Source: Candidatus Poribacteria bacterium
GTDB taxonomy: Bacteria > Poribacteria > WGA-4E > PCPOR2b
Assembly (NCBI GenBank): GCA_021295755.1
Contig: JAGWBT010000033.1
Coordinates: forward strand, 5,178-53,466
Length of the DNA stretch: 48,289 nt
Reading direction: 5' to 3'
Part shown: in pieces, positions 117 to 44,323 of the stretch
Layout: the number at the start of each line of letters is the position of its first letter
Numbering within the stretch: the first letter of the stretch is position 1
Program-made: the position numbers and the translations under genes
The notes under the pieces: generated by a model
Databases searched by the model: none
What the model saw: only the letters and a program-made list of their open reading frames with translations
What the model was told of the DNA's origin: nothing

Positions 117-229
117 AGGACTTACGCACTTCGATTGTAGTTGCCCGATTCATCGGGCGTTGGGAACGGTGTCCTGCGACGATGAATCGCCGAACTACAG
201 GGCTTTAACCGTTTAGCTGCGTAAGTCCT
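117..229. repeat. MITE-like element with AGGACTTACGCA inverted ends
   Basis: The element begins with AGGACTTACGCA (117-128) and ends with its exact inverse complement (218-229). TAACAGG occurs on both sides (109-115 and 229-235), which may be a target duplication. Inside are two opposed hairpins, each preceded by GTAG: one at 137-158 (GCCCGAT, TC, ATCGGGC) and one on the minus strand at 180-198. The 64-bp core (136-199) recurs at 44238-44301. There is no coding capacity, so it is a non-autonomous element or a composite with a REP pair inside. The rest of the first 336 bases shows no gene. Confidence 0.65.
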
Positions 230-11444: not shown

Positions 11445-11546
11445 TATAGTGAATTCAAAAAATAAATAGACATTTTCGCCCCCGGTAGGTGCGGTTGGAA
11501 ACCGCACCGGTTTGGAGTGTCTCATTAATCCTTAAGGTCCACTATA
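11445..11546. mobile_element. MITE-like element, TA-flanked, copy 2 (102 bp)
   Basis: The left end is TATAGTGAATTC followed by AAAAAATAAATAGACA. The right end, read inward on the other strand, is TATAGTGGACCTTAAGGATT, continuing to GAGACACTCC. These match the two ends of the copies at 2209-2377 and 35872-36074. The interior consists largely of one GTAG-preceded hairpin (11485-11508: GGTGCGGTT, GGA, AACCGCACC). A solo copy of the other family's end (TGCGTAAGTCC, about 11554-11564) lies just outside. Confidence 0.6.
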
Positions 11547-19103: not shown

Positions 19104-19198
19104 AGGACTTACGCAAATTCAGCACGCGGCGCGAGATTTTTTTTAACCCCCTAAATCCCCCTTATCAGGGGGACCTATGAACCAACTGCGTAGGTCCT
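19104..19198. repeat. MITE-like element with AGGACTTACGCA ends (95 bp)
   Basis: AGGACTTACGCA (19104-19115) is answered by TGCGTAGGTCCT (19187-19198), an inverse with one mismatch. The middle holds a C-run and G-run hairpin (CCCCC, TTATCA, GGGGG). It has the same ends as 117-229 but a different core. It lies in the gap between the GNAT gene start and the pyrC stop. Confidence 0.6.
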
Positions 19199-26506: not shown

Positions 26507-27421
26507 ATGGAAACATTCAAAGATCTGAAAGTTGGTATGGCAGCACCGGATTTCACACTCAATGACGGAAACGGAGCCGTCCATAACCTACGCGATTATC
26601 TAGGGAAAAAGAATGTCGTCTTGGCATTTTATCCCAAGGACTTCACCGGCGGCTGAACGACAGAACTCCGCTCGCTCCGGGACGAGTTGAGCCAAATTCA
26701 GGGGACGGATACGGTCCTTTTAGGGGTTAGCGTCGATGATGAAGCCTCTCATAAAAAATTCCAAGAAGAGGAGAAGTTTGGGTTTCCTCTGCTCGCCGAT
26801 ACGAAATTCGAGGTCAGCAAGGTCTATAGCGGCATTATGGAAAGGTTTCAGGCTTCTAATCGATCGACCTTCGTTATTGACAAAGCAGGATATATTCGTG
26901 CAATAGATCGAAACGTGAACACGCAAACGCATGGAGAAGATCTCGTCAAACTAATCAATGAAAGCATTCCGGGGCCAATTCAGGTCGGGCAGCCTGCACC
27001 AGACCTTATCGCTTCTGATCAGGACGGCAATACCCATCAACTCAGCAGCTTCGAGGGGAAAAAGAACGTTGTGTTAGCGTTCTATCCCAAAGACTTCACC
27101 GGCGGCTGAACGGCAGAGGTATGCTCGCTCCGGGATGAGTCGAGTACATTTGCCGAACACGATACCCAAGTCTTCGCAATTAGCGTACAAGATGCAGCGT
27201 CTCACAAGAAGTTTGCTGAAGAAAACAATCTTAACTTTCCATTGCTGGTGGACACAGGACGCCATATCAGTTTGCTCTTTGGTGCGACAGACAAATCGGA
27301 CGGTTTGAGCAGTCGCATAACGGTTGTCATCGACAAAGAGGGCAAGATTATCAAACTCGATAAACAGGTCAACGCGAGGACACACGGCAAAGACCTAGCG
27401 GATTTCTTCGAGTCGATGTAA
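26507..27421 (+). CDS. Tandem peroxiredoxin with two selenocysteines (UGA at codons 50 and 201)
   Basis: Reading through two TGA codons (26654-26656, 27107-27109) gives 304 residues: two BCP/AhpC-type peroxiredoxin domains (about 1-150 and 155-304). Each TGA falls at the peroxidatic Cys of the FYPKDFTGG-C-T motif. Domain 2 also keeps a Cys five residues later (U-T-A-E-V-C), the usual BCP resolving cysteine; domain 1 lacks it. It should reduce peroxides using thiol partners in the cytoplasm. A conserved hairpin lies 18 nt after each TGA (26666-26691, 27123-27140). Other genes here end at TGA and use TGG for Trp, so UGA is not generally recoded. AAGGAG precedes the ATG. Without readthrough the product stops at residue 49. 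Confidence 0.85.
26666..26691 (+). promoter_or_regulatory. Candidate bacterial SECIS hairpin 1
   Basis: The 5' arm CTCCGCTCG (26666-26674) pairs with CGAGTTGAG (26683-26691) with one internal mismatch. The loop is CTCCGGGA, 18 nt after the UGA. A hairpin at this distance within the coding region, with G in the loop, is what bacterial SelB recognises. An identical loop and core recur after the second UGA. Confidence 0.65.
27123..27140 (+). promoter_or_regulatory. Candidate bacterial SECIS hairpin 2
   Basis: GCTCG (27123-27127) and TGAGT (27136-27140) flank the loop CTCCGGGA (27128-27135), again 18 nt after the UGA; two pairs are G-U. The 13 bases GCTCGCTCCGGGA are identical to hairpin 1 although bases just upstream differ. 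CTCG with CGAG at 27141-27144 is an alternative pairing. Confidence 0.5.
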
Positions 27422-35125: not shown

Positions 35126-35866
35126 ATGCAATTAACAGACAAACAGGTGCAGCAATTTCATGAAGAAGGCTATTTGATTTTTGAAAGTTTAATCCACGGT
35201 GAAAAACTCAAGGCTTATCAGGATCTCTTCGATGATCTAGTTGAGCGCAGCCTCGCCCTCCCAGTTGACGGTCCACACTGGACCTTTGAATTCGGCGAAG
35301 ATCACAAGCCGATTCCAGGATTCTTACACAAAATTCAGGGTGTATGCGTCGTTGAGCCGAAGGTCCTAGATCTCGCCCAAGAAACGGCAATCCTTGACCG
35401 AGTCCAAACACTCGTCGGTCCCGACATCGACGTATTCGGCACCAAATTCTTTCCCAAACTGCCGAATGGCGGCACCTCGGTGCACTGGCATCAGGATAAC
35501 TACTACTTCGGCACAAACACAGACCGAATTGTTAGTTGCGGTATTTACCTTCAGGACGCTGACCGTGAGAATGGTTGTTTGAGAGTGGTTCCGAAAAGCC
35601 ACCTGTCCCAAGAGATTGTGGAGCATCACCGAAGGCAGGGGGCACACGGAAGTTGGACCGAAGTAGATGAATCGAAAGCCCTCGATGTAGAGGTGCCCGG
35701 TGGCACGGTGGTCTTCTTCTCATCGAATCTTCTCCACGGAACCTACGAGAATCGCAGTAACCGCCCTCGCTACAGCACCGCTTGGCACTATATCCCCGCT
35801 GATCTGCCTCTAGACCGGTTCCCACGCGGCGGTTACGAAGATCGGCACATTGTTCGCGGAAATTAA
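35126..35866 (+). CDS. Phytanoyl-CoA dioxygenase (PhyH) family protein
   Basis: 246 residues. PhyH-type enzymes are Fe(II)/2-oxoglutarate oxygenases. The metal triad is H122 and D124 in WHQDNYYFG with a distal His in FFSSNLLHGTYENRS, followed by the 2-oxoglutarate-binding Arg (NRSNRPRYS). GCLRVVPKSHLSQ is the family's conserved turn. The substrate is unknown; bacterial PhyH proteins hydroxylate many small molecules. AGGGGAA precedes the start. It ends 6 bp before a MITE-like element. Confidence 0.92.
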   Translation: MQLTDKQVQQFHEEGYLIFESLIHGEKLKAYQDLFDDLVERSLALPVDGPHWTFEFGEDHKPIPGFLHKIQGVCVVEPKVLDLAQETAILDRVQTLVGPDIDVFGTKFFPKLPNGGTSVHWHQDNYYFGTNTDRIVSCGIYLQDADRENGCLRVVPKSHLSQEIVEHHRRQGAHGSWTEVDESKALDVEVPGGTVVFFSSNLLHGTYENRSNRPRYSTAWHYIPADLPLDRFPRGGYEDRHIVRGN

Positions 35867-35871
35867 CATAC

Positions 35872-36074
35872 TATGGTGAATTAGAAAAATAAGTAGACAT
35901 TAAAAGTAGATAGTTTTTTGTAACACGATCTGTTAGATTGTGATCCCAAGCCGCAAACGCTACCTATGGCAAATTGCCCTTTACATCGGAGGCGTGCAGC
36001 GTATACCGTAACCCTGCCAACAGGTTTCTGACGTGCTCATTCACAGTGTCTAAGTGATTCTAAAATCTACCATA
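35872..36074. mobile_element. MITE-like element, TA-flanked, copy 3 (203 bp)
   Basis: The left end is TATGGTGAATTAG followed by AAAAATAAGTAGACAT. The right end, read inward on the other strand, is TATGGTAGATTTTAGAATCA, then CTTAGACAC. The right end is nearly identical to the left end of the copy at 2209-2377 over about 29 bases. No ORF lies inside. It fills the gap between the two dioxygenase genes, and its end is 12 bp from the next start codon. Confidence 0.7.
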
Positions 36075-36086
36075 AAAGAGGGGGAT

Positions 36087-36878
36087 ATGCTCAGTCACTC
36101 TGAAATAGAATCATTCCTTCAAGACGGCTATGTTATCCGCAGAGACGTATTATCTCAAACGGATATCGAAACATATCGCGCCGCTGTCGATTCCATCCTG
36201 CACAAATGCCGCGTCGAAAAGGCACATCAATACTTGCGCTACGTCAACGGCGAACAAGATGACATCTGGGGCGTAAACCACATCTTTCATCCAAGCATCA
36301 GAGAAGCAGCCCTCGTCGAATCGCTTGCACATCCCCAGATTTTGGACGTAATCGAAAGCCTAATTGGGACGCGGTTGCGCTATCATCTGTGCACACTGTT
36401 GGTCAGTCCGGAACGCAAGCCATATCATATCAACTGGCATCGGGATTCAACAAGAGATGGCGAGGTGCCTCGCGAACAACTGATAGCAAAACTCAAGGGC
36501 GGCGTCCAACTGAATGGCGCGTTATACGATGATGAAACCCTCACCATCGTCCCGGGCAGCCACCGACGGGAATTCACCGACACCGAACGACATATCCTAC
36601 GGAATTCGCCCAAAACTGACATGCCCAACCAAATGGCTGTCCAACTAAAGGCGGGTGATATTGTTTTCTACAACTCCAGCCTGATCCACAAAGGATATAA
36701 CCGGTCAGGGGCAATCCGCCAGACACTACATTACGCACTTGTGGCTGCACCGCCCGAAGGCGAACCGCCCAACCCGGATAGCCCTACGAGTCAGGAGTGG
36801 TTAAACGATCCAGCGTTCCTTGAAAGTCTCAACCCGCGAATCAAACCGCTTTTTGATAACTGGTTAAAATACGGATAA
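36087..36878 (+). CDS. Phytanoyl-CoA dioxygenase (PhyH) family protein
   Basis: 263 residues from the ATG at 36087, with GAGGGGG upstream; the longer frame begins inside the MITE-like element. Iron ligands are H118 and D120 in NWHRDSTRDG and a distal His in NSSLIHKGYNRSGAIRQTL, with Arg for 2-oxoglutarate. TIVPGSHRREFTDTE is the conserved turn. It is only distantly similar to the gene before it, so this is not a simple recent duplication. It is followed 14 bp later by an acetamidase gene, a likely operon partner. Confidence 0.92.
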   Translation: MLSHSEIESFLQDGYVIRRDVLSQTDIETYRAAVDSILHKCRVEKAHQYLRYVNGEQDDIWGVNHIFHPSIREAALVESLAHPQILDVIESLIGTRLRYHLCTLLVSPERKPYHINWHRDSTRDGEVPREQLIAKLKGGVQLNGALYDDETLTIVPGSHRREFTDTERHILRNSPKTDMPNQMAVQLKAGDIVFYNSSLIHKGYNRSGAIRQTLHYALVAAPPEGEPPNPDSPTSQEWLNDPAFLESLNPRIKPLFDNWLKYG

Positions 36879-44222: not shown

Positions 44223-44323
44223 AACTTAAAGATTTACTGTAGTTGCCTGATTCATCGGGCGTTGGGAGTTGTGTTGTGAGGCAATGAATCGCCGAACTAC
44301 AAGGCTTTGAGCGTTCAAGTCCA
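44223..44323. repeat. Degraded copy of the 117-229 repeat with inverted GTAG hairpins
   Basis: The 64 bases at 44238-44301 match 136-199 closely, and similarity continues through GGCTTT-A-CGTT. GTAG (44239-44242) precedes GCCTGAT-TC-ATCGGGC (44245-44260). On the minus strand GTAG (44297-44300) precedes a CGAT-TC-ATTG hairpin. The terminal AGGACTTACGCA ends are worn away. It lies directly upstream of a dehydrogenase gene. Confidence 0.65.

Follow-up and report, generated by a model that had tools for sequence, protein, structure and literature searches.

The closest precedent for the elements described here is RUP with its partner IS630-Spn1. In the portions of PMC2229807 and PMC3049150 that treat RUP, it is described as about a hundred short intergenic elements with IS630-like inverted-repeat ends, inserted at TA. 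The elements of Candidatus Poribacteria are similar in copy number, intergenic location, IS630-like ends and TA, but RUP as presented there is a simple 107-bp repeat of another phylum, whereas the poribacterial ends enclose several cores, at about 100 to several hundred bp; the two are likened by description, and membership in RUP is not claimed. The passages on BOX in PMC3049150 report that in S. suis the same boxB modules are framed by end modules of two kinds, a precedent for modular cores, as one poribacterial core, P, also lies between two kinds of ends. BOX differs in that its ends are not described as IS630-like in those passages, ISSpn2 being proposed instead, and in that the poribacterial cores are differing sequences rather than tandem boxB. 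The Correia elements or NEMIS of Neisseria, as outlined in part of PMC2229807, are also short and TA-terminated and have size variants, which differ by a 50-bp internal segment; the poribacterial cores vary in sequence, beyond one internal segment, and a matching insertion sequence was found. A biochemical model for the poribacterial transposase, again likened by description, is offered by ISY100, a member of the IS630/Tc1/mariner group whose transposase, according to the sections of PMC2170065 that deal with it, binds to the element ends, cleaves the DNA and integrates at TA, duplicating it in vitro; ISY100 differs in being an autonomous insertion sequence of a cyanobacterial host.

The window, i.e., the whole stretch of 48,289 nucleotides analyzed here, contains three elements that can be regarded, with a probability of roughly 0.93, as MITEs (miniature non-autonomous transposons) of a Candidatus Poribacteria IS630-family insertion sequence. 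All three had been listed in an earlier note made from the window alone, and all are present where it placed them, with small corrections of coordinates. Element 1, on the minus strand, starts at 2209 as reported and ends at 2378, not 2377 (170 bp); its B end (2209-2236) lies on the left and its A end (2351-2378) on the right of a P-type core. Element 2 (11445..11546, plus strand, 102 bp) comprises an A end (11445-11472), an R-type core whose palindrome begins at 11484, and a B end that has diverged and contains an indel. Element 3 (35872..36074, plus strand, 203 bp) is complete, with the A end at 35872-35899 on the left and the B end at 36047-36074 on the right; its core falls outside the main P and R classes by word matching and appears H-like by eye. 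All three begin with TAT and finish with ATA. The A end has the form TATRGTGAATT..AAAAATAA.TAGACA and the B end TATGGTAGATTTTAGAATTA.TTAGACA, and the two match each other as imperfect inverted repeats. That each element has one end like TATRGTGAATT and another like TATGGTAGATTTTAGAATTA, as the note had put it, is true of five of the six ends. The exception is the right end of element 2, a loose match that reads inward as TATAGTGGACCTTAAGGATTAATGAGACAC and goes unrecognized by the ungapped matrix (score -25.8); by eye it looks like the B end of the R subfamily, carrying a small indel. The left end of the same element is a good A end, scoring 47.6 with the 28-bp matrix. The five recognized ends score 34.7-51.8 with the 28-bp matrices, and the next-best position in the window 4.7, which serves as a consistency check because the matrices came from the same genome. 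The 20-base B pattern with at most 3 mismatches matched the window twice, against 0.00 in 100 shuffles, while the 11-base A pattern with at most 2 mismatches, weak on its own, gave 31 matches against 22.3 expected.

The genome of origin (G000), a 5.03-Mb draft in 257 contigs, holds well over 100 further ends. With at most 3 mismatches, B ends were found at 139 sites and A ends at 126, against 1 and 0 for the reversed-pattern controls, and the A end is present in 32 of the 39 genomes examined, own genome counted. A same-genus relative with a single-contig genome, G001, gave no A-end match, and the remaining five congeneric genomes, the own genome among them, gave 48-130. The own-genome catalogue was built from 120 loci read out of these 139 B and 126 A places, the ends being paired within 450 bp first and then within 700 bp; element 2 is absent from it because of its B-end indel. 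One A end was paired with one B end in 99 of the 100 catalogued elements of the own genome, 77 of the 79 of G003, and all 41 of G005. Lengths range from 101 to 383 bp in the first own-genome list and from about 100 to several hundred bp overall. The elements are thus short, carry terminal inverted repeats and no transposase gene, and occur in many copies (100 in the own genome).

A transposase gene bounded by both ends was found in two relatives, G002 and G019, as part of IS630-family insertion sequences of 904-908 bp. There is one in G002 (L071, 908 bp) and there are two in G019 (L072, 904 bp, and L086, 907 bp), in each of which the transposase region follows an A-type end and precedes a B-type end, so that these ends are common to the MITEs and to the insertion sequences; a 764-bp locus in G015 (L082) is a relative of the insertion sequence with an internal deletion. 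L072 has a single open frame, and in L071 and L086 two frames meet at a run of A, which suggests a frameshift. The L072 protein contains HTH_Tnp_IS630 and DDE_3 domains and scores above the NCBIfam IS630 cut-off; a sequence search of the PDB returned no match for it. A scan of the genome collection with this protein, reaching close relatives only, left 79 loci, all from Poribacteria. In 24 of these the ends were inspected, and the same overall arrangement recurs; many of the ends have diverged, which counts against derivation of the MITEs from IS630, and some were missed or cut off. At L290, L291 and L301 the A ends score 24.7-35.6 and the B ends 35.5-43.8, with negative scores elsewhere in the same loci. 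A DDE_3 search gave one weak match in the own genome and matches in nine of the ten relatives searched. The one copy of the insertion sequence seen in the own genome, a draft assembly, is truncated by a contig end, has a divergent, poor A end, and is about 60% identical to the query across the first 102 residues; no intact partner of the recent MITE copies was seen there. By eye, MITEs and insertion sequences have no obvious sequence in common beyond about 28-30 bp.

TA is exactly at both borders in 89 of 102 elements, and the flanks of the 102 sites display a palindromic preference, A-[AT]-[CT]-TA-[AG]-[AT]-T; the 13 elements without TA at one or both called borders speak against the IS630 reading. 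The proposal of the earlier note that TA borders reflect insertion of the Tc1/mariner-IS630 type is borne out by nested cases and by empty sites, with one exception. In four cases (L024, L026, L027 and L053) one element lies inside the end of another, and in all four, taking out the inner element and leaving one TA restores an intact outer end. Empty sites of the window elements were sought by searching eight relatives with the joined flanks, and they end at TA for the first two elements but not for the third. G001 (GATTTAGTTG) and G005 (AATTTAGCTA) lack an insertion at site 1, which is occupied, with other interiors, in G002, G003 and G004. Site 2 is empty in G005, where the junction is CTTTAATTCC; G004 has CA where TA is expected. 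Site 3 is empty in the same-genus relatives G001, G002, G003 and G004, and in these four alignable genomes the junction lacks the TA (three have CA and G002 has TCA), a further point against IS630-derived MITEs and a result that goes against one of the criteria set in the earlier note, while the own genome implies TA at this site. The simplest reading would be that a C-to-T change preceded the insertion, the TA then presumably being duplicated.

Transposition of the following kind would account for these elements. Each MITE has a non-coding core flanked on either side by about 28 bp resembling the parent's termini, A the upstream and B the downstream one. A full insertion sequence would supply the IS630 transposase in trans, which would recognize both ends and excise the element; insertion would follow at TA in the palindromic context given above, with duplication of the TA. 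Copies build up mainly between genes. Only the ends would be needed, so that the core may be any of a few palindrome-rich modules. We infer this mobilization in trans, the cut-and-paste mode, and the origin of the cores.

The middles of the elements are not unrelated, as the earlier note had it, but belong to a few recurrent classes. Simple word matching divided the 100 own-genome elements into 48 with R cores, 40 with P cores, 6 with H cores and 6 that fell in no class; the R class consists of GGTAGGTGCGGTT..AACCGCACC palindromes and the P class of GTCCCCCTGATAAGGGGGATTTAGGGGGTT. The suggestion that the ends captured several sequences stands in a modular sense only, the interiors being recurrent palindromic cores and not random captures. 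One A-end subtype occurs in 33 of the 48 R elements and the other in 30 of the 40 P elements. The core words are many times denser within elements than outside them in the sampled loci, which were picked for containing elements. The own genome has 70 occurrences of a 14-bp palindrome, CCCGATWWATCGGG, against 0 for its letters read backwards; many element cores contain it, and it also appears at in-place changes.

A second, miniature-transposon-like family, whose ends of the form AGGACTTACGCA...TGCGTAAGTCCT are unrelated to A and B, is represented by 18 elements in the sampled loci and the window together, and 8 of the 18 carry the P core, which is therefore present between different end modules. 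Two members are located in the window, neither with an assigned strand: one at 19104..19198, with the ends AGGACTTACGCA and TGCGTAGGTCCT and the same P core inside, and one at 117..229 with another palindromic core, which recurs alone at 44238-44315. Among 65 sampled P cores, from loci chosen by IS630-type ends, 58 lie by ends of that type, 6 by AGGACTTACGCA-type ends and 1 by neither; for R cores, 63 of the 66 sampled lie by IS630-type ends.

The sharing of the P core between families with unrelated ends speaks for an additional process, in which, besides transposition, the ends act as a shell: recombination or template switching among dispersed copies, even of unrelated end families, would swap the cores where they stand, and an old insertion would change its interior without moving. 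Of the filled sites shared between species, six have clear junctions, namely site 1 (shared by L010 and G003, and also filled in G002 and G004), L122/L214, L146/L196, L149/L275, L001/L211, and L147/L258, and in none of the six is the interior unchanged, as exchange would have it. L001/L211 and L147/L258 each represent one element, with the same flanks and much of its sequence in common, in which a palindromic piece has been inserted or replaced, which also favors exchange. The other four have different interiors at the same TA, and these can be obtained by independent hits on preferred sites. Such sites, non-coding and effective as targets, were estimated at about 1,400 per genome, a figure derived from one 48-kb window, in which ORFs were masked crudely and the target matrix was itself built on these elements; with this number, reinsertion is sufficient for the four different-core cases, and exchange was therefore demoted to a rival of transposition. 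Further points against exchange are the orientations, which are opposite between the two species at L122 and likewise at site 1 in G004, and the cores, which mostly track the A-end subtypes, a pattern that amplification of entire elements would produce. Moreover, draft assemblies, with N runs inside several elements, can blur interiors. Exchange in place is thus considered unlikely, and it is similarly doubtful that the cores form a separate exchangeable layer which passes between unrelated MITE end families and whose turnover is faster than that of ends and position. Outside the six, L136/L285, L105/L251 and L035/L210 may be shared sites, but their junctions are uncertain; L108/L232, L011/L251 and L134/L198 were set aside as not clearly orthologous (flanks short of the junction or a repeat-only match), as were most rows past the first five in a further comparison. 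At L214 (G005:C35:30600-32737) a gene-length stretch lies between two similar elements in a composite-like arrangement, and the own genome has one element there.

Element 3 is located between two genes of the PhyH (phytanoyl-CoA dioxygenase) family, both on the plus strand: 35126..35866 upstream (E 2e-32) and 36087..36878 downstream (E 2.4e-16, scanned as 36054-36878). It ends 12 bp from the ATG at 36087, exactly as the earlier note had said, and the two genes, 19 nt apart in G001, are 220 nt apart with the element between them. An influence of element 3 on the expression of its neighbors is plausible. Promoter-like matches are slightly above those of shuffles (2 vs 0.7 and 1 vs 0.3), and an outward TATAAT is present at 30 of 199 ends, a raw count taken without a background, which is not promoter evidence. 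The elements are biased towards intergenic positions: for 10 of 86 elements the joined empty site lies in an ORF of at least 100 aa, compared with 234 of 400 random positions in the window. This location between genes would also suit hairpin regulatory RNAs or terminators kept for their function, whose resemblance to transposons would be secondary, and so would the folding of the three window elements, each better than its shuffles (z of -2.20 for element 3, and of -2.65 and -2.90 for the other two). Inverted-repeat ends, however, give good folds for trivial reasons, an Rfam scan of the window gave no match, no terminator-like site was found in the elements scanned, and mobility is evident from the insertion polymorphism between species and from the nested insertions at TA, so that a regulatory RNA is a very improbable explanation. 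A chance likeness of short AT-rich sequences, to which only the 11-base A pattern, alone barely above expectation, could point, is refuted by the genome-wide counts against controls, the A-B pairing, the nested insertions and the empty sites.

The IS630-derived MITE, as these elements are read here, is a kind already known, and what is unusual is the varied, hairpin-rich middles. A literature search on MITEs, insertion sequences and repeats in Poribacteria found no report of MITEs in the titles and abstract openings. For a bacterial MITE family it has a high copy number, and it also has a probable partner transposase, a target preference that can be measured, and orthologous sites, both filled and empty, in several species; it provides a dataset suited to the question of whether in-place replacement changes the interiors of MITEs or preferred sites are simply hit again.

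Elsewhere in the window, at 26507-27421 on the plus strand, there is a fused two-domain peroxiredoxin-like frame with in-frame TGA codons at 26654 and 27107, each in the catalytic position within an FTGG(TGA)T motif. Its product looks like a protein with two selenocysteines, and the own genome contains a tRNA-Sec match above its cut-off.
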